This document shows positions 19,832 to 34,343 of a stretch of DNA of 49,885 nt, piece after piece. Made by a program: the position numbers and the translations under genes. Source of the DNA: an uncultured Gemmatimonadota bacterium (lineage in GTDB: Bacteria; Gemmatimonadota; Gemmatimonadetes; Gemmatimonadales; Gemmatimonadaceae); NCBI GenBank assembly GCA_903900795.1, contig CAIUOO010000400.1, forward strand, positions 1 through 49,885, given 5' to 3'. How positions within the stretch are numbered: the first letter of the stretch is position 1; the number at the start of each line of letters is the position of its first letter. The notes under the pieces were generated by a model, which ran no database searches, had not been told where the DNA came from, and worked only from the letters and a program-made list of their open reading frames with translations.

Positions 19832-20206
19832 TTACTTGCAGGTGGCGCCGCCCGGCTGGCCTTCGGCGAGGCCGGCCGGCGTGTCCGAACCCGTGCCGAT
19901 CGAGCAGGTCGCGCCATCGGCATTCGCATGCGTCGCCGTGCCCGCCCAACCCGTCGCGGACCCCACAAATGTCAGCGTCACACCCGACGAACCCGTCGGC
20001 GCGGCGTAGCCGGCGTAGGTGTTGTTGTCCGAGAAGAACGCTTCGGCCGACGACACCATGTTCTTCAGGTCCGACTTCATGGCCGTCACGTACGCCTTGC
20101 GCTTCGTGTCGGCAAACTTCGGGATCGCGATCGCGGCGAGGATGCCGATGATCACGACGACGATCAGGAGTTCAATGAGGGTGAACCCCTTGCGAGTGCG
20201 CTGCAT
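19832..20206 (-). CDS. pilA: Type IV major pilin, copy 1
   Basis: MQRTRKG|FTLIELLIVVVIIGILAAIAIPKFADTKRKAYVTAMKSDLKNM; SD-like tggaga upstream. Confidence 0.92.
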   Translation of the reverse strand: MQRTRKGFTLIELLIVVVIIGILAAIAIPKFADTKRKAYVTAMKSDLKNMVSSAEAFFSDNNTYAGYAAPTGSSGVTLTFVGSATGWAGTATHANADGATCSIGTGSDTPAGLAEGQPGGATCK

Positions 20207-20267
20207 AGTCCGTCTCCATTTTAGTGGCCGACCGGGCATCAATGCCCGCTTCGTTACCGTCAGGTAA

Positions 20268-20283
20268 AGCAACCGGCGTACCA
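20268..20283 (-). promoter_or_regulatory. Sigma-54 -24/-12 promoter of pilA copy 1
   Basis: Minus strand TGGTACG-CCGG-TTGCT versus consensus TGGCACG-N4-TTGCW (one mismatch), 62 bp upstream of the ATG. Confidence 0.7.
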
Positions 20284-20375
20284 CGCCGCGTGCTTTCTGC
20301 AAGTCGTTGGCACCAATAGCGTTCCATACGCGCGCGCCCGTGCGTGCACCTGGTCGCGCCTTCATTTCGCCAGTT

Positions 20376-20392
20376 CCTTGCAATGTGCAAGG
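20376..20392. promoter_or_regulatory. Candidate upstream activator palindrome for pilA copy 1
   Basis: CCTTGCA-ATG-TGCAAGG, perfect 7-bp arms; centre about 115 bp upstream of the -12 element. Confidence 0.5.
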
Positions 20393-20446
20393 TGGTGCCC
20401 TCGCCAGGGCGCCCCCCGCTTGTCCCACAGCAAGGCGGCAACGGCA

Positions 20447-20474
20447 AAGGGGCCGAGCACGTGCTCGACCCCTT
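20447..20474 (-). terminator. Hairpin downstream of pilA copy 2
   Basis: aaggggccgagcac/gtgctcgacccctt, 14-bp arms with one wobble pair, about 57 bp past the pilA2 stop. Confidence 0.6.
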
Positions 20475-20530
20475 CCCCCCCGTTAGACGGTCCTACGCGC
20501 GGCGGAGCAGTGCCCCGCCCTCGTGAGGAT

Positions 20531-20905
20531 TTACTTGCAGGTGGCGCCGCCCGGCTGGCCTTCCGCGAGGCCGGCCGGCGTGTCCGAGCCCGTGCCGATC
20601 GAGCAGGTCGCGCCATCGGCGTTCGCATGCGTCGCCGTGCCCGCCCAACCCGTCGCCGACCCCACGAACGTTAGCGTCACGCCCGACGAACCCGTCGGCG
20701 CGGGGAAGCCGGCGTACGTGTTGTTGTCCGAGAAGAACGCTTCGGCTGACGACACCATGTTCTTCAGGTCCGACTTCATGGCTGTCACGTACGCCTTGCG
20801 CTTGGTCTCCGCAAACTTCGGGATCGCGATCGCGGCGAGGATGCCGATGATCACGACGACGATCAGGAGTTCAATGAGGGTGAAGCCCTTGCGAGTGCGC
20901 TGCAT
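20531..20905 (-). CDS. pilA: Type IV major pilin, copy 2
   Basis: 124 aa, differs from copy 1 at only three residues in the translated ORFs (AD/AE, GYAAP/GFPAP); SD-like tggaga upstream. Confidence 0.92.
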   Translation of the reverse strand: MQRTRKGFTLIELLIVVVIIGILAAIAIPKFAETKRKAYVTAMKSDLKNMVSSAEAFFSDNNTYAGFPAPTGSSGVTLTFVGSATGWAGTATHANADGATCSIGTGSDTPAGLAEGQPGGATCK

Positions 20906-20978
20906 AATGTGTTCTCCAGTGGGGGTCAATCGACGCTGGTCACCCGTGGTGATGCCCGGCGAGACATGGCGATGGTAG

Positions 20979-20993
20979 GCAACTGCCTTGCCA
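20979..20993 (-). promoter_or_regulatory. Sigma-54 -24/-12 promoter of pilA copy 2
   Basis: Minus strand TGGCAAG-GCAG-TTGC versus consensus TGGCACG-N4-TTGC (one mismatch), 74 bp upstream of the ATG. Confidence 0.7.
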
Positions 20994-21091
20994 CGTTGCC
21001 AGAAACACGCTAACCCATTATTTTTCAGATACTTGCATCATTTCAACGCCGGCCTACCCGGAGCATTGCCCATGGCCTTTCGCACGCTTCG

Positions 21092-21104
21092 TTGCATCGT
21101 GCAA
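21092..21104. promoter_or_regulatory. Candidate upstream activator palindrome for pilA copy 2
   Basis: TTGCA-TCG-TGCAA; centre about 119 bp upstream of the -12 element. Confidence 0.45.
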
Positions 21105-21254
21105 GAGTCAACCCGTGGGACGCCGTGGGACACCATTCCGGTGGCGTAATACTCGTGCCCCACGGGTGACACCGAGGCCTCCGGCCACGAACGCGAACGT
21201 GGCACGTGCAACCGCACGTGCCACGCATCGGCTCATAGAGCACCGGCGACCTCG

Positions 21255-21647
21255 CTACTGACAGAAGGGCTCACTCGGCGCATCCGCGGCCAACGACGTC
21301 CCCGCCGCGATCGTGCATTCAATCCCCGGCACGCCTACGTGCGTCGCCGTGGCAGACCATCCGGATGGCGTCCCGGTGAAGATCAGCGTCACGCCATCCG
21401 AGCCCTGCGGCGCCACCACGTCCTCATACGAATTGTCCGAGGTGTAGCGCGATTCGGCGACCGTGGCCAATCCTCGCAGATCTGACTTCATCGCGGTGAC
21501 GTACGCCCGGCGTTTCGCCCCCCCGAATTTTGCCATGGCGATCGACGCCAAAATCCCGATGATGACCACGACCACCAACACTTCGATGATCGTGAAACCG
21601 GTGCGACGTCGCAGAAGGGGGGACACCAGCAGAAGGGGGGACAGCAT
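21255..21647 (-). CDS. Third type IV pilin-like protein, translationally coupled to pilR
   Basis: MLSPLLLVSPLLRRRTG|FTIIEVLVVVVIIGILASIAMAKFGGAKRRAYVTAMKSDLRGL; ATGA overlap with the pilR stop. Confidence 0.85.
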   Translation of the reverse strand: MLSPLLLVSPLLRRRTGFTIIEVLVVVVIIGILASIAMAKFGGAKRRAYVTAMKSDLRGLATVAESRYTSDNSYEDVVAPQGSDGVTLIFTGTPSGWSATATHVGVPGIECTIAAGTSLAADAPSEPFCQ

Positions 21648-23029
21648 CAGTCGTCTCCGTAGCGGGCCAGCTTGCGATACAACGTGGACGGATCGATGCC
21701 GAGCAGATCGGCCGCCCGACTCTTGTTTCCACCTTCGTTCTGCAGCACCCATTGGATGTACGCGCGCTCGATGGCTTCGAGCGTGGGCGAGACCGGTGCA
21801 CGCTCTCTGACGAGCGGCTCGGCCCGACGGGCCGTTACGCGCTCCGGGAGCGCATCGGGTTCGATCACGGCACCGGTCGACAGGATGACCGCGCGCTCGA
21901 GCGCGTTCTCGAGTTCACGCACATTGCCTGGCCAGGCATACGCCATCAGCGCGTCGAGCGTGTCCTCACGCAGCGTCTTCACGCCTTCGTGCCGAAGCGT
22001 CGCGCTGCGCGCGAGAAACGACTCGACCAGCAACGGAATGTCATCCCGACGCTGGCGCAGCGGCGGCAGATGCACGGCGATCACGTTGAGCCGATAGAAC
22101 AAGTCGGGGCGGAAGCTGCCGCGCTTGATCTCTTCTTCCAGGTCGCGATTGGTGGCAGCCAACACGCGCGTGTTGACCGGCACCGCCTCCGTGGCACCGA
22201 CAGGAATCACCTCTCGCTGCTGCAACACCCGCAGCAATTTGACCTGAATCGACGCCGTCGTCTCGCCGATCTCGTCAAGAAAGAACGTCCCCTGATTGGC
22301 CGCGGTGAAGAGACCGGCCTTGTCTTTCACGGCACCGGTGAACGAGCCCTTGATGTGACCGAAGAGTTCACTCTCCAGCAGGGACTCGGGGAGGGCACCG
22401 CAGTTGATCGAGAGAAAGCTGTTGTCCGATCGCGTGCTCAACTCGTGGATGTATCGCGCAATCACTTCCTTACCCGTGCCTGACTCGCCGGTGAGCAACA
22501 CCGTGGAATCCGTCGGGGCGACCGTCTCGGCGAGACGCAGGACATCGAGCCACGGCTTGCTGCGCCCGATCGGACGACCATTTGTCGTGCGGTCGCGCCG
22601 CTTGATCTCCTGCTTCAGCGTGGTGTTCTCGGCGCGCAGGTGGCGATGCTCGGCGGCACGACGGAGGATGGCGAGCAGCTCGTCGTTACGAAACGGCTTT
22701 TGGATGTAGTAGAACGCGCCCTCGTTGACCGCCTGCATGGCAGACTGCAACGTGGCCTGGGCCGTCATCAGGATCACCGGCACATCGGGATCGACTTGAC
22801 GGGAGGTGCTCAAGACCTGGACGCCGCTCACATCGGGCATCCGCACGTCGGTCAGTACGATATCCGGTCGCAGTTCGGGGATGCGTTCCACGCCGGCCCG
22901 GCCACCGTGCGCCGTGAACGGGATGAACCCCTCGTTCTTGAGCAGAATGCGTAGCGACTCGAGAATGCCCGTTTCGTCGTCCACGATGAGCACGCGCGGG
23001 GCGTCACCGGCGAGCGCAGGAAGGGTCAC
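21647..23029 (-). CDS. pilR: Sigma-54-dependent response regulator PilR
   Basis: Receiver domain, AAA+ core with GESGTGKE and GSFTGA (PilR-type GAFTGA motif), Fis-type HTH (GGNKSRAADLLGIDPSTLYRKLARYG). Confidence 0.9.
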   Translation of the reverse strand: MTLPALAGDAPRVLIVDDETGILESLRILLKNEGFIPFTAHGGRAGVERIPELRPDIVLTDVRMPDVSGVQVLSTSRQVDPDVPVILMTAQATLQSAMQAVNEGAFYYIQKPFRNDELLAILRRAAEHRHLRAENTTLKQEIKRRDRTTNGRPIGRSKPWLDVLRLAETVAPTDSTVLLTGESGTGKEVIARYIHELSTRSDNSFLSINCGALPESLLESELFGHIKGSFTGAVKDKAGLFTAANQGTFFLDEIGETTASIQVKLLRVLQQREVIPVGATEAVPVNTRVLAATNRDLEEEIKRGSFRPDLFYRLNVIAVHLPPLRQRRDDIPLLVESFLARSATLRHEGVKTLREDTLDALMAYAWPGNVRELENALERAVILSTGAVIEPDALPERVTARRAEPLVRERAPVSPTLEAIERAYIQWVLQNEGGNKSRAADLLGIDPSTLYRKLARYGDD

Positions 23030-24825
23030 GGGGCAACTCCAGAAAGGCGAGGGAGCAACGCATCGGCCGAATCGTCCGGATGCGGCTCGACGGGGACAGC
23101 ATTGTACACGGGCGTTTCACCGCGACGAGACGAATCATGGTCGCTGGCGGTTGGCAGCAGCATGGTGAAGCGCGTCCCACGGGGCAGCGAATCCACCAGC
23201 ACGACCCCGCGATGCGCCTCGACCGCACGATGCACCACCGGGAGTCCGAGGCCGGTCCCGCCAGCCTTGCCGGTCACGAACGGTTCGAACAGGCGATCCT
23301 TCAGCTCCGGTGGGACACCGGGGCCGTCATCGGTCACACTCACCGTCAACAGCTCTCCGGTGAGCATCGCCGACGCGGCACCGTGCTCGCCGGTCGGGCG
23401 ATAGCGGTCGACCTCGATAAACACGTGCCCCTCGGGTCCGACGGCCTGTACGGCATTGAGGACCAGGTTGAACACCGCGCGATGCAGCAAATCTTCGTCG
23501 CCTTCCACCGATGGCAACCCGGGCGCCACGCGCACCTGAACCTGCACGCCGTCGCGCCGATCAGGATGCGACGCGGCGATTGTCGAGGCCGCATTCACGA
23601 TCGCGCCCAAATCGACACGACTCACGCGCGTCACGCGCGCCCGGGCGAAATCGAGGAAGTCCGCGAGTAATCGGGTGAGTCGATCGGCCTCACGCACCAC
23701 GAGATCGTGCAAGATGCGCTCGTCGTCATCGTCGGCCGTTGGCTCCAACGACCGCCCCCGCCGGCGCGCCAGTTGCTCGGTGGCGCTGCGAATCGACGCC
23801 AGCGGATTCCGGATTTCGTGCGCGAGGGATGCGCTGAGCTCCGCCACCGCTTGCAGTCGTTCGGCGCGGATGTGCAAGGCCTGAATGCGCTTGCTGTCCG
23901 AAATGTCCTGAAAGATCGCGGTCGCCGTCACGCCCCCGTCCTTCCGTGTGCCATTGGCCACCGTGGTCGTGACACCGATCTCGACCATCTCGCCGCCCCG
24001 GTGTATCACGCCTTCGGCACGCGTGGTCCGAACGCCCTCGCGCGACGACCGCTCGAGGAGCGTGGCGAGCTGCGGGGAGACACCGAGCAGCGTGTCCAGC
24101 ACCGGCAGCCCAAGGAGCAACCGCAGCTCGAGCCCGAGGAGATCGGACGCCGCGGGATTCGCGTACAGGAGTCGCCCCTGCGCGTCAACGGTCATGATGC
24201 CGGACCGAATCGTGCGGAGAATGTCAGCCGCTTCGTGCCGGACCTTCACGAGCTGCTCGGCGAGGGCCTCACGACCCATACCGGCCTGACGGAGACGTGA
24301 CGACACGTAGCCGGAACCAAGTGCGACCACCACGAAGACCGCGATTTGTATGGTGATGCCGACGTAGGGCGTTCCCGGCCTCAGCAGGAGGACATCGGCC
24401 GAGTACAGCAGGCAGGCGCCTCCCGCCACGGCCAGCCCGCCGCGGAACGGCAGCAGCAACGCCGCGCTGGCGATGACGAGGATATACAGGGCGGCGAACT
24501 GAGAGCTCCAGCCACCGGTGATGTGCACGACGGCCGTGACCAGCGCCAAGTCGATCGCGCACTGGATGGCATAGAAGCCCAGCCCCAGCGTACGCCGTTC
24601 GACTTCGCCGTAGAGCGCCGAACCGATCGTCGCCAGCGTCGCGCCCGCGAAGGCCAGCGTCGCGATCAGCGTGTCGCTCGGTGCCGCCTCACTCCACACG
24701 AACACGGCCGCCACCAGAATCGCACACGAGAGCACGACGCGGCCAAGCCAGACCCAGCGCAGCACGCGGCGCGGGTCGAGCATCTCCTGAATCGGTTCCT
24801 GTGGGATCGCTGGGGTATATCGCAT
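23026..24825 (-). CDS. pilS: Sensor histidine kinase PilS (multi-TM, PAS, HisKA, HATPase_c)
   Basis: Six-TM-like N-terminus, PAS, H-box AELSASLAHEIRNPLASIRSATEQLAR, TGLGLPVVHRAVEAH; overlaps pilR. Confidence 0.88.
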   Translation of the reverse strand: MRYTPAIPQEPIQEMLDPRRVLRWVWLGRVVLSCAILVAAVFVWSEAAPSDTLIATLAFAGATLATIGSALYGEVERRTLGLGFYAIQCAIDLALVTAVVHITGGWSSQFAALYILVIASAALLLPFRGGLAVAGGACLLYSADVLLLRPGTPYVGITIQIAVFVVVALGSGYVSSRLRQAGMGREALAEQLVKVRHEAADILRTIRSGIMTVDAQGRLLYANPAASDLLGLELRLLLGLPVLDTLLGVSPQLATLLERSSREGVRTTRAEGVIHRGGEMVEIGVTTTVANGTRKDGGVTATAIFQDISDSKRIQALHIRAERLQAVAELSASLAHEIRNPLASIRSATEQLARRRGRSLEPTADDDDERILHDLVVREADRLTRLLADFLDFARARVTRVSRVDLGAIVNAASTIAASHPDRRDGVQVQVRVAPGLPSVEGDEDLLHRAVFNLVLNAVQAVGPEGHVFIEVDRYRPTGEHGAASAMLTGELLTVSVTDDGPGVPPELKDRLFEPFVTGKAGGTGLGLPVVHRAVEAHRGVVLVDSLPRGTRFTMLLPTASDHDSSRRGETPVYNAVPVEPHPDDSADALLPRLSGVAP

Positions 24826-24927
24826 GACCGCGGGAAGACTTGCAGAATGCCGGAGAAACGGACGGCTCGGTAGTCTTGCAGATTGCACTACCCTGACGAA
24901 TCACGCGCATGTCCGTTTCCTTACAGT

Positions 24928-27440: not shown

Positions 27441-29663
27441 ATGTCGGCTCAGGCCACCCGTGTCAATCAACTCGTCACCGCGGCGCTTGGACTCGACGTC
27501 GAGCAGGCGCGCTGGCGCGCGCTCACGCGTCAGATCGCGCCCACCGACCCGCTACCGAACCGCCTGCGCTCGATCGGCGGCGCGATCGATGTCGGCTATC
27601 TCGATCGGCAAATCTCCGGCGATACGCTCAAGCTGGCGATCGCCGAGCGTACCGTCCCCATCGTCTTGCTTGACCTACGCAACGACGATGCCATCGTCTT
27701 GTGCCGCAATTCGGACGATCGCGTGCACGCGGTGCTGGTGCCGCGGGATGGGAGCGAATCCGCCATCGAGGGCCAGGGTGACGCGCTCGCCGATGCGCTG
27801 ATGGCCCGTCTTGGTTCGGGGAACGTGTTGTCGGCGCTGGCGCCAATGGCACTGCGGCCGGCCAACAGTGCCCTCTCAAGCGACTACCCACATAGCCCGG
27901 TCGGCCATGCGGGTCACACCGACGAACAGGAACACACGACCGCGCTCGACCGCACCCTTGCGCTCTTCGCCCGGGAGCGTCGGGAGATCCTCACCGTCTT
28001 CTTCTACGCGACGCTGTCCGGTGGCCTGAGTCTGATTCTCCCGTTGGCCGTGGGCGGCATCGTGCAGATCGTACAGGGCAGGCTCTACCTGCAGCCTGTG
28101 ATCGTGCTGATCTCCTTCGTCGTGCTCGGCACCATCGTGGCCGGCGTGCTGCAGGTCGGCATTTTGAAGGTGGTGGAGCGTATTCAGCAGCGGGTATTCG
28201 CCCGCATGGCGCTCGAGTTCGCGTTTCGCATCCCACGGCTGCGCTACGCGGCGTCGCTGGAGTCGAATCTCCCCGAGCAGATGAACCGTCTGTTCGAGGC
28301 GATCGCGATTCAGAAGGGCGTACAAAAGTTGCTGCTCGATGTGCCGACCGCACTGCTCACGATCGTGTTCAGCCTGCTCCTGCTCACGTTGTACAGTCCG
28401 TGGTTCTCCGTCTTCGCGATCGGGGTCACCGCCGCCTTGTGGTTCATTATCCGATGGACGGGGCCGGAAGGGCTCGAAACATCGATTGTGGAGTCGAAGT
28501 ACAAGTACAAGGCGGTGCACTGGCTCGGGGAAATCGCGCGCGCCTTTCATGCCTTCAAGTACGCCGGCGACTCCACGCTCCCCGTGGAGCGGATGGACGA
28601 TGTGGTCACCGGCTATCTCAAGTACCGGCGCAAGCACTTCGCTGTCCTCGTGAAGCAGACGATCGCCCTGATCGGTTTCAAGACATTCATCACCGCCGCC
28701 GTGTTGATCATCGGTGCGACGCTGGTGCAGAGCAATCGGCTGCTGCTGGGACAGTTCGTCGCGGCCGAAGTGGTCATCGTGACGGTGCTGGCCGGCGTCG
28801 AAAAACTGATTACCAGTCTGGCCACGGTGTACGATGTGCTCACCAGCGTGGACAAGTCGGGCCACGTGGCGGACCTGCCGCTCGAAGCCCGCGGCGGCCT
28901 CGCGCCGATTCATACGCCCGGCGTTGGCGTAGCGATCGCCACCAAGGACTTGCGGTATCGCTATCCCTCCGCGCGTTCCGCCTCGGTGGATGGCGTGACC
29001 GTGCAGATCGCGCCCGGCGAACGGGTGGCCATCATGGGCTCCGACGGATCCGGCCAGTCCACACTGCTCAAGCTGCTCGGTGGCATCATCGACGACTACG
29101 ACGGCACGATCCGATTCGACGGCATCACGCTGCGGGACCTCGATCGGCCGGCGCTCCGCGCACGGATCGGGCAGATGCTCTCCTGGACGGACCTGTTCGA
29201 CGGCACGATCGAGGAGAATGTCAGCGTGGGCCGCGCGCACATCACGCCGCGCGATGTCCGTGAAGCCCTCGATGACCTCGCCCTCACCGACGAAATCCAG
29301 CAGTTGCCGCAAGGCATTCAAACCGAGATCACGAACGGCGGACGCACTCTTCCCACGTACCTCGCGAGCAAGCTGCTCGTGGCGCAGGGTATGGTGGGCC
29401 GTCCTCGCCTGATCGTGCTCGACGACTTTTTTCAGAATCTCGACGCGGCGTCGCGGACGCTCATCATCAAGGTGCTCACCGACCGTAAGCGGCCGTGGAC
29501 CGTCATCACGGTGTCGCACGATCCCCAGCTGCTCGCCGCGTTCGATCGTGTGCTCATCGTCGATCAGGGACGGCTCGTGCGCGAGGGCCCGTTCAGCGTG
29601 CTGCGTGAAGACCCGATGTGCCGCAACCTCTTGCACGAGACGCCAGTGACCACGGGAGCCTGA
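27441..29663 (+). CDS. ABC exporter, type I secretion-like TMD-NBD fusion with degenerate NBD motifs
   Basis: About 200-aa N-terminal region, ABC_membrane TMD, NBD-like region IAPGERVAIMGSDGSGQSTLLKLLGG ... LIVLDDFFQNLD ... VITVSHDPQLL; followed by HlyD and TolC genes. Confidence 0.85.
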   Translation: MSAQATRVNQLVTAALGLDVEQARWRALTRQIAPTDPLPNRLRSIGGAIDVGYLDRQISGDTLKLAIAERTVPIVLLDLRNDDAIVLCRNSDDRVHAVLVPRDGSESAIEGQGDALADALMARLGSGNVLSALAPMALRPANSALSSDYPHSPVGHAGHTDEQEHTTALDRTLALFARERREILTVFFYATLSGGLSLILPLAVGGIVQIVQGRLYLQPVIVLISFVVLGTIVAGVLQVGILKVVERIQQRVFARMALEFAFRIPRLRYAASLESNLPEQMNRLFEAIAIQKGVQKLLLDVPTALLTIVFSLLLLTLYSPWFSVFAIGVTAALWFIIRWTGPEGLETSIVESKYKYKAVHWLGEIARAFHAFKYAGDSTLPVERMDDVVTGYLKYRRKHFAVLVKQTIALIGFKTFITAAVLIIGATLVQSNRLLLGQFVAAEVVIVTVLAGVEKLITSLATVYDVLTSVDKSGHVADLPLEARGGLAPIHTPGVGVAIATKDLRYRYPSARSASVDGVTVQIAPGERVAIMGSDGSGQSTLLKLLGGIIDDYDGTIRFDGITLRDLDRPALRARIGQMLSWTDLFDGTIEENVSVGRAHITPRDVREALDDLALTDEIQQLPQGIQTEITNGGRTLPTYLASKLLVAQGMVGRPRLIVLDDFFQNLDAASRTLIIKVLTDRKRPWTVITVSHDPQLLAAFDRVLIVDQGRLVREGPFSVLREDPMCRNLLHETPVTTGA

Positions 29664-29668
29664 ACACC

Positions 29669-31030
29669 ATGGCCTTGTCCGATCTCGATATCGAACGCGA
29701 GCTCAAGCACCTGCCGTTGGAAACGACGGCGTTGCTGGGCGAAGCGAACACCAGCCGCATCGTGTCCCGGTGGCTGCTGGGCATTCTGATCACGCTGTTC
29801 CTGGTGCTGTTTCTACCGTGGCAGCAGAGCGTCCGCGGCGAAGGGAGCGTCACGGCCCTCGATCCCTCCGACCGTCCGCAGGAACTGCCCACGCGCATCG
29901 ATGGCCGCATCGAGCGGTGGTACGTACAGGAAGGGCAGTACGTCCAAAAGGGCGACAGCATCGTCCGCATCTCGGAGATCAAGGAGGAATATCTCAATCC
30001 CAACGTGCTGCCGCTCACGTCGCAGCAGCAGGCGGCGAAAGAATCCGCGATCGGCGAGAAACAGAACAAGGCGGCCGCCCTCAGCATGCTAATTTCGCAG
30101 CTTGAAGCGCAACGTGATTTCAAGCTGCAGCAGACCGCGAACAAGATCGAGCAGTACCGCGCCGAAGTCCGTCAGGCCGTCCTCGAGGACTCGGTGGCGC
30201 GGGATCAACTGCGCCGCCGTGAGCGGCTCTTCCGCGACACGCTCGGCCTCGTGTCGGTGAACGAGTTGCAGGCGTTTCAGATCCGCGTGCAGTCGGCGTC
30301 GGCCAAACTGGTGGAGAAGCAGCAGATGCTGCTCAGCACGCAGACCGATCTCTCGAGCATTCCCGCCGAATACGGGGAGAAGATTTCGAAGGCCCGTTCC
30401 GACCGCGCATCAACGCTGGCCGAGGTCAGCGAAGGCCGGTCGGAGGTGGCGAAGCTCAAGGATAAGGTCGGTTCGCTCACCATCCGCAACGGGTTCTACC
30501 TCATCGAAGCGCCGCAGGATGGCTACGTGGTGCGCGCCACGAAGGCCGGCCAGGGCGAGATCGTGAAAGCCGGTGAGCCCATCGTCACGATTCAGCCGGC
30601 ACGGCCAAGCAAGGCGGTCGAGCTGTTCGTGAAACCCATGGACATCGCGTTGCTGAAGCCGGGGCGGCATGTGCGCATCTTCTTCGACGGCTGGCCCGCC
30701 CTGCAGATCTCGGGATGGCCACAGGTGGCGTCGGGCACCTTCGGGGCCCAGGTCGCCGTCATCGACCAGTTCCCGAACCGCGCGGGGCAGTTCCGCGTGT
30801 TGCTGGTCCCCGACACCACACGCGATGCACCGTGGCCAGCGCAGCTGCGCCTCGGCACTGGCGTGCAGGGATGGGCGATGCTCGACAACGTGACGGTTGG
30901 CTGGGAAATCTGGCGTCAGCTCAACGGCTTCCCGCTCTCGATCAATCCCAACGAAGCCCTGCCGGCCGACGCCGTGGCGGGTGAGAAGAGCGCGGGCAAG
31001 AGCGACGCCAAGGGCGGAGGCAAAAAATGA
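29669..31030 (+). CDS. HlyD family periplasmic adaptor
   Basis: Single N-terminal TM, lipoyl-like halves (LPTRIDGRIERWYVQEGQYVQKGDSIVRI; NGFYLIEAPQDGYVVRATKAGQGEIVKAGEPIVTI), coiled coil. Confidence 0.9.
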   Translation: MALSDLDIERELKHLPLETTALLGEANTSRIVSRWLLGILITLFLVLFLPWQQSVRGEGSVTALDPSDRPQELPTRIDGRIERWYVQEGQYVQKGDSIVRISEIKEEYLNPNVLPLTSQQQAAKESAIGEKQNKAAALSMLISQLEAQRDFKLQQTANKIEQYRAEVRQAVLEDSVARDQLRRRERLFRDTLGLVSVNELQAFQIRVQSASAKLVEKQQMLLSTQTDLSSIPAEYGEKISKARSDRASTLAEVSEGRSEVAKLKDKVGSLTIRNGFYLIEAPQDGYVVRATKAGQGEIVKAGEPIVTIQPARPSKAVELFVKPMDIALLKPGRHVRIFFDGWPALQISGWPQVASGTFGAQVAVIDQFPNRAGQFRVLLVPDTTRDAPWPAQLRLGTGVQGWAMLDNVTVGWEIWRQLNGFPLSINPNEALPADAVAGEKSAGKSDAKGGGKK

Positions 31031-32481
31031 GCGTCGCCACAGGTGCGTCGCTCGCGGTGCTGATCAGCGCCGCACTCGCCTGCTCGGCGTCGGCGCAGTC
31101 GAAACCCGTCAAACTCGATACGCTCGGCACGCCGTTCACCTTTCCCGCCTTTGTGGACGGAATTCTCGCCCATCATCCGGTGGCCACCCAGGCGCGACTC
31201 GTGGCCGATCAAGCGCGGTCCGATCTGCGCACGGCGTGGGGGGCCTTCGACCCCACAGTGACCGCCACGTGGGATCAGAAGAAGTTCGGCGGCACGCAGT
31301 ATTTCAACTACTTCGACGCGGAACTCAAGATTCCGTTGCCGATCGGGGCGGATGTCACGATTGCGTTCGACCGCACCATGGGCCGGTACTTCAATCCGGA
31401 CCGGCGGACGCCCTCAAACGGTACGGTCGAAGCGGGTATTTCCATCCCGTTGGGCCAGCGCATTCTCACCGATGAGCGCCGCAATGCGCTGCAGCAAGCG
31501 CGTGCGGCGCGGGACGCCGGCGAGGCCGATCGCACCGCCATTGTCAATAAGCTGCTGTTTTCGGCGGCGAAGGACTACGGCGTGTGGTATGAAAGCTGGC
31601 GGCGCCGGGTGATCGCGCAGGAAGGTGAGGCGTTGGCCGAGTTTCGGTTGCAGGCCGTGCGACGGCGTGCCGCGAACGGTGAAAGCGCCCCCATCGACAC
31701 CATCGAAGCGCTGCTGGAGCTGCAGCGTCGCGAGGTTACCCGCTTCGAAGCGGAGGCGTCGTTCTATTTCGCATCACTCGACGTCACGGCGTACCTGTGG
31801 GATGACGCCGGGCGGCCGGCACCGTTGCCCGCCGACGCGATGCCCGTACTCCTCGGCATCGAACAGGTGGGCATCGACTCGACGCGCCTCGAGGCGCTCC
31901 TCGACCTCGCCACCCGCCGCAACCCCGACCTCCTGAAAGTGCAGGCCCGGATCAAGCAAGCCGAGGCGCAGCGACTCTTCAGCAAACAGGCACTCCTGCC
32001 GCTGGCCGAAGCCAAACTGGCCGGGCTCGGCGAGAGCGATAGCGAGCAATCCTTTTTCGATGGCGAGCGGCTGGACAACAACTACAAGGCCGGCCTCAGC
32101 ATCAAGTCGCCCCTCCTTTTTCTCAGGGAAACGGGTCGATTCGCGTCGGCCGGACAACGGCTTGAATTCCAACGGCTCGAGCGGGACCGCGTGCGGCGCG
32201 AGGTCGAATTCGACGCGCGGGCGGCCATCTTCGACCTGTTCAATCTGGAGCGGCTGCGGCAGCGACAGGTGGCCAACGTGCGGAACGCGAGGCTGTTGCG
32301 TGAAGCCGAGCAGGTGCGCTTCGACAACGGCGAGAGTACGCTGCTGATCCTGAATCTGCGCGAACGTCTGGTGCTCGATGAAGCGGTCAAGCTGGCGGCG
32401 GTCGAGGCAAAGGTGGCGGGCGCTCGTGCCGCGCTCGCAGTCGCCACGGGCGACCGGACGCTGCTGTTGAAGCAGAACTAG
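31027..32481 (+). CDS. TolC family outer membrane protein
   Basis: Signal peptide; helical repeats typical of OEP (DERRNALQQARAARDAGEADR..., QVRFDNGESTLLILNLRERLVLDEAVKLAAVEAKVAGARAALAVATGD); overlaps the HlyD gene. Confidence 0.88.
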   Translation: MSVATGASLAVLISAALACSASAQSKPVKLDTLGTPFTFPAFVDGILAHHPVATQARLVADQARSDLRTAWGAFDPTVTATWDQKKFGGTQYFNYFDAELKIPLPIGADVTIAFDRTMGRYFNPDRRTPSNGTVEAGISIPLGQRILTDERRNALQQARAARDAGEADRTAIVNKLLFSAAKDYGVWYESWRRRVIAQEGEALAEFRLQAVRRRAANGESAPIDTIEALLELQRREVTRFEAEASFYFASLDVTAYLWDDAGRPAPLPADAMPVLLGIEQVGIDSTRLEALLDLATRRNPDLLKVQARIKQAEAQRLFSKQALLPLAEAKLAGLGESDSEQSFFDGERLDNNYKAGLSIKSPLLFLRETGRFASAGQRLEFQRLERDRVRREVEFDARAAIFDLFNLERLRQRQVANVRNARLLREAEQVRFDNGESTLLILNLRERLVLDEAVKLAAVEAKVAGARAALAVATGDRTLLLKQN

Positions 32482-32545: not shown

Positions 32546-32854
32546 ATGCCTAACCGAAAAGAGTGGGACCTGCCGGACGACGCCGGCGATCCCGACGAGG
32601 CCGAGGAGGCGCTCGACGACGAGGAGTTTCCCATCGGCGACGGCGTCGCCGACCTCGTCGGGGAAGTGTACTGCCCGTATTGCGGCGAACCGGTGGAGAT
32701 CACGCTTGATCCGGGCTCCGGAACGCATCAGCAGTACATCGAGGATTGTCAGGTCTGCTGTCGCCCGTGGCTCGTGTCCGTGAGTTATGACGACGACGGC
32801 ACGGCCCACGTGCACGTGGACGCGAACGACGACCACGACGAGAACGATGGCTGA
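32546..32854 (+). CDS. CPXCG motif-containing cysteine-rich protein
   Basis: VYCPYCGEPVEITLDPGSGTHQQYIEDCQVCCRPWLVSV. Confidence 0.85.
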   Translation: MPNRKEWDLPDDAGDPDEAEEALDDEEFPIGDGVADLVGEVYCPYCGEPVEITLDPGSGTHQQYIEDCQVCCRPWLVSVSYDDDGTAHVHVDANDDHDENDG

Positions 32855-34343
32855 CCGTTCACGCCCGACCGCCGCCGAGTGGCGTCACCTGTTGCCGGAG
32901 GCGCTCCGCCGGCCAGCGCAGGAGGGCGCGCGCGTGGTTGCGCTGCACTGGCTCGAACAGCTGTGTGAAGCGCGCGCCCGGTGGGAACCGGCGGCATTGA
33001 CGACGGCCCACGAGTCCGGTGTGCCCACGATGGCGCCCGGCACCGCATTCGGTACCGACGCGGAGACCCTGCACCGCGCTCGGGTGGCGCTGCGACGGCT
33101 GCGCGCGGTGCTCCGCGAGCATGAGAGCGCCCTCGACGGCGCGGTGGACCGACACACGCAGCGTGCCCTGCGGGCTCTCGGCCAAGCGACGAACGCGGTG
33201 CGTGATGCCGACGTACAGCGCTCCTGGCTGGACGCTGAGATGGAGCAGCTCCCTACCGTGGCCCGCGCCGAAGCCATCCGCCTTCGGGCGATTCTCGACC
33301 GCCAGGCGTCCCGCTCATCGGCCGCGGTGACGCGCGCGTTCGAGAAACATCTCGATCCGATCGTGGACCGCCTGCTCGCTCGCCTGTCCACCTACATGCT
33401 GTTGCACCGCGTGGGGATACCGACCACGCCCACCCCGTTCGCGCGGCATCTCGCCACGCGGGTGGAGCGAGCGTCGGCGCGACTGCGGCGTGATCTCGAG
33501 CGTGTGACCAGCGCGGACTCGCGCGAGGCGATGCATCAGGTGCGCATCCGACTCAAGCGCCAGCGCGCGATGCTCGCGCCCTTCGCCAAGTCGCGTCCCG
33601 CACTTGGTGCGTGGTACGAACTCGCCACGCGCGGTCAGGATTTGCTGGGCGCGGTACGCGACGCAGATCTGTTGGCGGAACGTGCGCTCAAGGCCAAGCT
33701 GCCGGCGCTCCATCTCGCCTTGGGTGGCATCGCGCGAGCGCACTACGAGGCATTCACACTCGACTGGTGTGCCCGGATCGACGGTGTCATGCAGTCGCTT
33801 GACCTAGCCGTCCTCGAACTGCAGCGCGACAGCGCCCCCGTCACCGACGCCGGCGTGCCTCTCGAGATCGAACGCAAGTATCTCCTCACGCGCGTCCCCC
33901 CGGTGGCCGCCGCCGTTCCGCCCACACTGATCGAACAAGGCTGGCTGCCAGGCACCGCCCTGCGGGAGCGGTTACGTCGCTCCACTAATCCAGACGGCAC
34001 CGTCGTGTGTTGGCGCAATGTGAAACTCGGGCCGGCGCAGGCCCGCGTCGAAATTGACGAAATCACGAGCCGCGAGCTGTTCGACGCGATGTGGCCCCTC
34101 ACCGCCGCGGCGCGCGTGCGCAAGCAGCGACATGTCGTGCGCGATGCGGCCTACGCGTGGGAGATCGATGTGTTTCTCGACCGCGACCTCGTGCTTGCCG
34201 AAGTCGAACTCTCGGGGCTCGATGACAGGCCGGAGCTGCCCGAATGGCTCGTCCCCTACCTCGAGCGCGACGTCACGGGTGAGCCCGCCTATTTCAACTC
34301 GGTGCTGGCCCGTGCCGAGCGTCGGCACGGATCCAGACGGTGA
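32847..34343 (+). CDS. CHAD domain protein with C-terminal CYTH domain
   Basis: Two CHAD-type repeats (HRARVALRRLRAVLR; MHQVRIRLKRQRAMLAPF ... LLGAVRDADLLAE), then CYTH (LEIERKYLLTRVPP ... EIDVFLDRDLVLAEVEL). Confidence 0.82.
   Translation: MADRSRPTAAEWRHLLPEALRRPAQEGARVVALHWLEQLCEARARWEPAALTTAHESGVPTMAPGTAFGTDAETLHRARVALRRLRAVLREHESALDGAVDRHTQRALRALGQATNAVRDADVQRSWLDAEMEQLPTVARAEAIRLRAILDRQASRSSAAVTRAFEKHLDPIVDRLLARLSTYMLLHRVGIPTTPTPFARHLATRVERASARLRRDLERVTSADSREAMHQVRIRLKRQRAMLAPFAKSRPALGAWYELATRGQDLLGAVRDADLLAERALKAKLPALHLALGGIARAHYEAFTLDWCARIDGVMQSLDLAVLELQRDSAPVTDAGVPLEIERKYLLTRVPPVAAAVPPTLIEQGWLPGTALRERLRRSTNPDGTVVCWRNVKLGPAQARVEIDEITSRELFDAMWPLTAAARVRKQRHVVRDAAYAWEIDVFLDRDLVLAEVELSGLDDRPELPEWLVPYLERDVTGEPAYFNSVLARAERRHGSRR

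Follow-up and report, generated by a model that had tools for sequence, protein, structure and literature searches.

A degenerate nucleotide-binding domain in an ABC-exporter-derived protein of a HlyD–TolC operon, and relatives that lack the domain

ATP hydrolysis is the defining trait of ABC exporters, and it is also assumed to power type I secretion systems and tripartite pumps of ABC type. For hydrolysis, the nucleotide-binding domain (NBD) requires the Walker A lysine, the LSGGQ signature, the catalytic glutamate and the Q-loop glutamine. Departures from this scheme are already known, i.e., ABC-derived transporters without NBD such as SbmA, and half-degenerate heterodimers, which are common. 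SbmA is proton-driven, and its presumed ancestors are ABC transporters whose NBDs were lost (PMC13316013). In an engineered NBD-less MsbA (MsbA-MD), the transmembrane domain (TMD) still performs proton-coupled efflux with a pH gradient (PMC4979069). Here we describe a protein with a degenerate NBD encoded in an operon with HlyD and TolC homologs, together with its relatives in five phyla.

The window protein, its motifs and its maintenance

In the window, i.e., the whole 49,885-nucleotide stretch of DNA analysed here, a coding span of 740 codons (27441-29660), read directly from the sequence with its ATG start and TGA stop, encodes the protein under study (Table 1). It matched PF00005 with 56.8 bits against a cut-off of 25, and its TMD matched PF00664 with 27.1 bits, slightly under the cut-off of 28. 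Among the 54 PF00005 matches of the genome, the window protein, here with 60.8 bits, scored lower than nearly all others that span the model. In the AlphaFold2 prediction (mean pLDDT 74.8, pTM 0.68), the NBD fold is intact, the TMD has six helices and the N-terminus forms an alpha/beta domain; residues 140-164, 308-323 and 436-453 are its poorest stretches. In Foldseek, the top PDB match was HlyB in the HlyB/D complex (8dck, 7sgr), followed by PCAT1, with TM-scores of only about 0.5. The NBD and TMD folds, the PF00005 match, the marginal PF00664 match and the Foldseek ranking thus place the window protein among the ABC exporters. It stayed far below the curated NCBIfam cut-offs of the HlyB, LssB and PrtD models, with 188 versus 693 bits for TIGR03375, 146 versus 726 for TIGR01846 and 160 versus 510 for TIGR01842. 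The N-terminal domain is the fastest-evolving part of the protein, and a Pfam search found no C39 match in it.

Table 1. Positions of the window gene, its domains and motifs, its operon neighbours and small upstream ORFs of TMD-only loci
Feature	Position	Strand	Remarks
Degenerate-NBD inner-membrane protein, ABC-exporter-derived, 740 aa	27441..29663	+	ATG 27441, TGA 29661-29663; orthologues
N-terminal alpha/beta domain, residues ~1-160	27441..27920	+	Site is that of the HlyB/PCAT1 C39-like domain
Transmembrane domain, residues 166-490	27936..28910	+	Portion kept by TMD-only relatives
Degenerate nucleotide-binding domain, residues 497-733	28929..29639	+	Predicted fold intact, pLDDT mostly 77-94
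Walker A GSDGSGQST, from G533 to T; Gln539 replaces Lys	29037..29063	+	CAG at 29055-29057
LPTYL at LSGGQ signature position, starts at L637	29349..29363	+	Sequence and alignment
Walker B end LDD (D661, D662); Asp662 replaces catalytic Glu	29418..29426	+	Sequence and alignment
HlyD-family periplasmic adaptor	29669..31030	+	PF13437, TIGR01843; conserved neighbour in ~66 loci
TolC-family outer-membrane protein (OEP)	31027..32481	+	PF02321; start overlaps hlyD stop (ATGA); conserved neighbour
Small upstream ORF, examples	L253:4484-4819; L254:7163-7495(-); L257:7149-7484(-); L176:6454-6798	as marked

The initial annotation had described an ABC exporter in which the Walker A lysine, the signature, the Q-loop glutamine and the catalytic glutamate are all substituted, with the H-loop and D-loop remaining, and each of these assignments was right. 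Ser581 occupies the Q-loop position, and VSHD (H-loop) and NLD (D-loop) are retained. A HMMER alignment with P-glycoprotein confirmed the register of the motifs. At identical alignment columns, four canonical exporters of this genome have K, Q, LSGGQ, E and H; hence, the alignment itself is not at fault. None of the four elements required for hydrolysis is present in the window protein, which has Q, LPTYL, D and S instead. Judging from its sequence, it may have lost ATP binding or hydrolysis.

A scan of genome contigs yielded relatives of 71-95% identity from Gemmatimonadaceae MAGs, and more orthologues came from other Gemmatimonas genomes. These (L009-L024 and further orthologues) carry like substitutions, including those of the one-contig genomes G019, G039 and G074, and share the pattern G-x-D-G-[SA]-G-[QR]-[ST]-T, a Q-loop serine, an L-x-x-x-x signature without GGQ, and DD. 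Conservation of the substituted motifs, which the initial annotation had raised, holds for the degenerate pattern and the DD, but not for the glutamine itself, as it alternates with arginine in Gemmatimonas, and with Glu, Ser, Thr or Lys in the remaining Gemmatimonadota. The catalytic position is Asp throughout Gemmatimonas and Asp, Glu, Ser or Gln in other Gemmatimonadota. As far as this comparison could go, canonical motifs were not found in any close homolog. Equal motifs in independent assemblies rule out a sequencing or assembly error.

Pairwise Nei-Gojobori estimates of dN/dS between the window protein and L009-L011, L017 and L019 were 0.025-0.046 for the TMD and 0.10-0.12 for the NBD; overall, close relatives showed about 0.02-0.05 and about 0.1, respectively. 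In each of 15 pairs compared, the NBD was less conserved than the TMD. An orthologous canonical exporter from these genomes shows no such difference between its two domains. Selection hence maintains the window protein, chiefly through its TMD. The NBD of this lineage is under weaker constraint than the TMD, and since purifying selection still acts on it, it must do something. Uninterrupted orthologues and these dN/dS values rule out a pseudogene. The earlier view of a maintained, divergent transporter rather than decay is thus borne out, as the orthologues of independent Gemmatimonas assemblies are single copy, keep the degenerate pattern under purifying selection and have no canonical partner in the operon.

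Operon, family extent and graded degeneration

The hlyD and tolC genes follow in the tight array that had been read from the DNA, and the window operon has the ABC-HlyD-TolC gene set of type I secretion. Among about 66 loci with good flanks, nearly all show the order ABC, hlyD, tolC; exceptions were some Armatimonadota, where tolC comes first, and Nitrospira, with hlyD-tolC-ABC-ABC. No RTX or leader-peptide substrate was seen near the operon, and no substrate gene was recognised beside it. Elsewhere in the window, the minus strand carries three type IV prepilin-like genes in tandem (GFTLIELLIVVVIIGILAAIAIPKF type) at 19832-21752, two of which hardly differ along much of their length; the three adjoin a sensor kinase and an NtrC-type regulator (21647-24888). 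A CHAD domain protein at 32787-34343 apparently runs into a CYTH-like region (LEIERKYLL), and Pfam gives CHAD alone.

An operon of TMD protein, HlyD and TolC occurs in Gemmatimonadota, Bacteroidota, Nitrospirota, Acidobacteriota and Armatimonadota. Of 298 Gemmatimonadota genomes, 36 contain family members; a larger tally of 105 also counts generic exporters scoring about 205-230 bits. The phylum holding Chloroherpetonaceae (Bacteroidota in GTDB) has members in 88 of its 345 genomes. The phylum of Blastocatellia (Acidobacteriota) contributed 9 of 247 genomes, Armatimonadota 12 of 121 and Nitrospirota 21 of 118. Scores with the profile of alignment A2 exceeded 450 bits for full-length members of most phyla and 420 bits for those of Nitrospirota; TMD-only members reached about 310-344, and no generic exporter went beyond about 230. 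The TMD profile gave members 328-466 bits (Nitrospirota mostly 269-323) and generic exporters at most about 35. The TMD alone is diagnostic of the family. Several charged TMD positions (K292, K296, H399, E443, E454 and K455) are conserved in the family and absent from the three generic exporters compared; the conserved acidic positions include D300, E443 and E454.

TetR regulators usually have a role in small-molecule efflux. Judged by eye, a TetR-like gene is often found upstream of the NBD-bearing loci of Bacteroidota, which hints at efflux of small molecules there. In some Bacteroidota loci (L187, L196, L200), the operon adjoins SulP-type transporter and beta-carbonic-anhydrase-like genes, also judged by eye.

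The NBDs of the family span a range from near-canonical, with the Q-loop glutamine already gone, to fully degenerate. Members from Acidobacteriota and Armatimonadota mostly have K, LSRGQ, LDE and H, with Asp, Tyr or Thr at the Q-loop position. Some other members keep K and E without the signature. In Gemmatimonadota, the lysine is mostly lost (Q, R, E, S or T) and the signature is lost in all, and Nitrospirota motifs resemble ADTTMAKTA, FAPTH, and FEG or FDG. Just 12 of the 132 NBDs compared combine K, GQ, E and H, and none of these 12 has the Q-loop glutamine; a glutamine stands at this column in 11 degenerate members, where the loop aligns poorly. Loss of the Q-loop glutamine is ancient and family-wide, and not peculiar to the window protein. 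The Walker A lysine is kept in about 60% of the NBD-bearing sequences compared, and LSRGQ, LDE and His in some; hence, nucleotide binding may persist, and in the near-canonical branch also hydrolysis. In an outgroup-rooted quick tree the outgroup branches were very long, and the order of ancestral states is therefore weakly rooted.

Two Acidobacteriota loci (L277, L278) have degenerate NBDs with KSR or KTL after Walker A and a lost H-loop, in one also without the Walker B glutamate. As other members of this phylum are near-canonical, the two may have degenerated separately. Nitrospirota contain two overlapping or adjacent tandem family copies (L171:8267-11772 on the minus strand, also G1266, G1305, G1323 and G1326), both with fully degenerate NBDs. 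They follow hlyD-tolC in L171, and sometimes a third copy lies elsewhere. Such a tandem pair could possibly form a heterodimer of two pseudo-ATPases.

The NBD-less branch

The most telling fact about the family is a branch without NBD, which was invisible to the initial annotation. Its first sign was a set of four Bacteroidota matches spanning the TMD alone. In the order of one of these four hits, searched with their alignment, a TMD-only gene (frames of 333-371 codons) was present in 57 of 201 genomes and a full-length gene in 37. We examined 56 TMD-only rows, a few of which are one gene fetched twice. Their frames end 1-9 residues past the TMD profile, i.e., at the TMD/NBD junction. In all loci examined, hlyD overlaps the TMD-only gene or begins within about 20 nt, with tolC next where the flank suffices, and no NBD was found in the operons of the 56 rows. 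A split gene or frameshift is ruled out, as hlyD follows immediately and no downstream NBD remnant was present in any frame.

In a careful IQ-TREE analysis of the TMD, the TMD-only rows were monophyletic (100/99) and joined degenerate Bacteroidota members (100/97 and 99/91) within a clade of 42 rows that has no intact member (100/100). The TMD-only genes are under strong constraint (dN/dS 0.014-0.032). This nesting and constraint point to a single loss of the NBD in the sampled rows, in an ancestor whose NBD had already degenerated, after which the machine stayed in use. TMD-only proteins differ at Q249 (now E), W361 (Y) and F372-K373 (Y-R), and the coupling-helix-2 region has a changed length. 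The new glutamate might hint at an SbmA-like glutamate ladder, and the altered region is reminiscent of SbmA, which lost coupling helices (PMC13316013), although both are only suggestive.

Directly upstream of the TMD-only gene, at least 40 of the 56 rows have a small ORF, and a few more have one with a variant ending (examples in Table 1). The protein of about 105-120 residues has a basic N-terminus, a hydrophobic segment, a charged middle and an end that reads VPTPPPD or similar. Six of these proteins gave no Pfam family match. In whole-genome searches, the ORF occurred once per genome, at the operon site alone, in 7 of 10 TMD-only genomes, and was not found in two NBD-bearing control genomes. 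It is a candidate fourth component or regulator of the TMD-only machine, and would be a membrane or secreted protein.

Energy coupling, alternatives and comparison with known systems

The reading we favour, with a probability of roughly 0.6, is that a HlyB-like type I secretion lineage no longer depends on its own ATP hydrolysis and now forms an NBD-degenerate tripartite machine, an equivalent of SbmA with HlyD and TolC, in which the TMD is a secondary-active or gated conduit. The window protein would be the inner-membrane part of a distinct family of envelope machines made of TMD protein, HlyD and TolC, with a HlyB-like ABC exporter of type I secretion as putative ancestor. The Q-loop glutamine, the coupler of nucleotide to TMD, is already gone in near-canonical members. 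Walker A lysine, LSGGQ, catalytic glutamate and H-loop histidine were lost in differing combinations, and one Bacteroidota branch deleted the NBD while keeping the operon. Because of the motif losses and the deletion of the NBD with the operon kept, the machine most likely works without ATP hydrolysis by an NBD of its own. The TMD dimer may be a conduit, either gated or secondary-active and then probably proton-coupled, through which substrate reaches the HlyD–TolC duct, and the leftover NBD of the window protein might be a structural or regulatory dimerisation domain. We infer both the absence of ATP hydrolysis and the export direction. Proton coupling would be the likeliest energy source in analogy to SbmA (PMC13316013) and NBD-less MsbA (PMC4979069).

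The NBD might act in trans, i.e., the TMD could borrow the NBD of an unrelated exporter, much as ECF transporters share one ATPase module. Ordinary NBDs are plentiful in TMD-only genomes, and TMD and NBD genes of YddA type can be split (PMC13316013). However, no family-type NBD was found in 15 TMD-only genomes, where the best match, at 178 bits, and the other best NBDs listed sit inside ordinary exporter-length ORFs; in three NBD-bearing control genomes, the family NBD profile scored 249-299 bits. The same search discounts a relocation of the NBD within the genome. The altered coupling-helix-2 region (FK to YR, W361 to Y, and length) also speaks against a borrowed NBD, which moreover would leave the degenerate fused NBD of the window lineage unexplained. 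We consider this explanation unlikely.

A gated channel or regulator seems similarly doubtful to us. Here, the protein would not pump but open or anchor the HlyD–TolC duct, with the NBD as its switch, similar to CFTR or SUR. An NBD fold that is predicted intact and under purifying selection would agree with this, and the loss of the whole NBD in one branch would suit a structural role of the TMD. The large conserved TMD with its family-specific charged residues, however, resembles a working translocation path.

The degenerate protein could also be one half of a heterodimer, paired with a canonical half-exporter encoded elsewhere, so that one site is dead and one live. Heterodimers commonly have one degenerate site, for instance with Glu changed to Asp or, in ABCG5/G8, Lys to Arg (PMC7756269, PMC8277102), and the window genome holds many other exporters. 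Known heterodimers, however, keep one live site, whereas every catalytic contribution of the window chain to either site is changed. The separate NBD subunit that the initial annotation had named as a counter-argument did not turn up, either as a canonical exporter partner in the operon (about 66 loci compared) or as a second family copy in the window genome. The NBD-less branch, furthermore, has no NBD for pairing, and we regard a heterodimer as improbable. An ordinary ATP-driven exporter with unusual but functional motifs is very improbable, even with the near-canonical relatives of Acidobacteriota and Armatimonadota, as lysine, signature and catalytic glutamate are all changed together in the window lineage, a related branch dispenses with the NBD, and deletion of the Walker A lysine strongly lowers MsbA ATPase activity (PMC4979069).

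We hence prefer a machine that works without its own ATP hydrolysis. A wider proposal, which we hold only tentatively and at somewhat less than even odds, is that these phylum-spanning tripartite exporters turned from primary to ion-gradient-driven transport, with the intermediates of Q-loop, catalytic and NBD loss still extant and the TMD-only branch gaining a small upstream membrane or secreted protein. Stepwise discarding of the ATPase with HlyD and TolC kept would, if true, show a primary transporter becoming a secondary one. Natural intermediates would make this question testable, for which SbmA and engineered NBD truncations have so far been the basis. Such genes should not be annotated as ATP-driven exporters.

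We found no description of the family in open-access papers, nor of a tripartite HlyD–TolC system with both sites apparently lost or the NBD deleted and with living intermediates. The type I secretion ABC transporters HlyB (8dck, 7sgr) and PCAT1 are alike in the N-terminal domain at the C39 position, the six-helix TMD, the NBD and the HlyD and TolC partners, but in the window family the ATPase motifs are lost, some members are NBD-less and no RTX or leader-peptide substrate was seen nearby. Substitutions of these types (E to D, K to R, altered signature) also occur in TM287/288, TmrAB and ABCG5/G8. One live site remains in those heterodimers, whereas here both sites of the presumed homodimer are hit, with no partner apparent. 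SecA_DEAD-associated loci resembling type I secretion also combine HlyD/TolC-type genes with the lack of a recognisable working ABC ATPase, but have no ABC transporter gene and a second SecA-type ATPase instead (PMC4452313). MsbA-MD is an engineered truncation, not a natural family, and not tripartite. Searches of TMD-only and degenerate members gave no SbmA Pfam match up to E 10, which excludes membership in SbmA/BacA (SLiPT). SbmA and, as proposed here, the window family nevertheless share an ABC-derived TMD without NBD function and a presumed full-length ABC ancestry. SbmA works alone as an importer and has a TM0 domain as well as a glutamate ladder, whereas the window family is associated with HlyD and TolC and retains graded intermediates.
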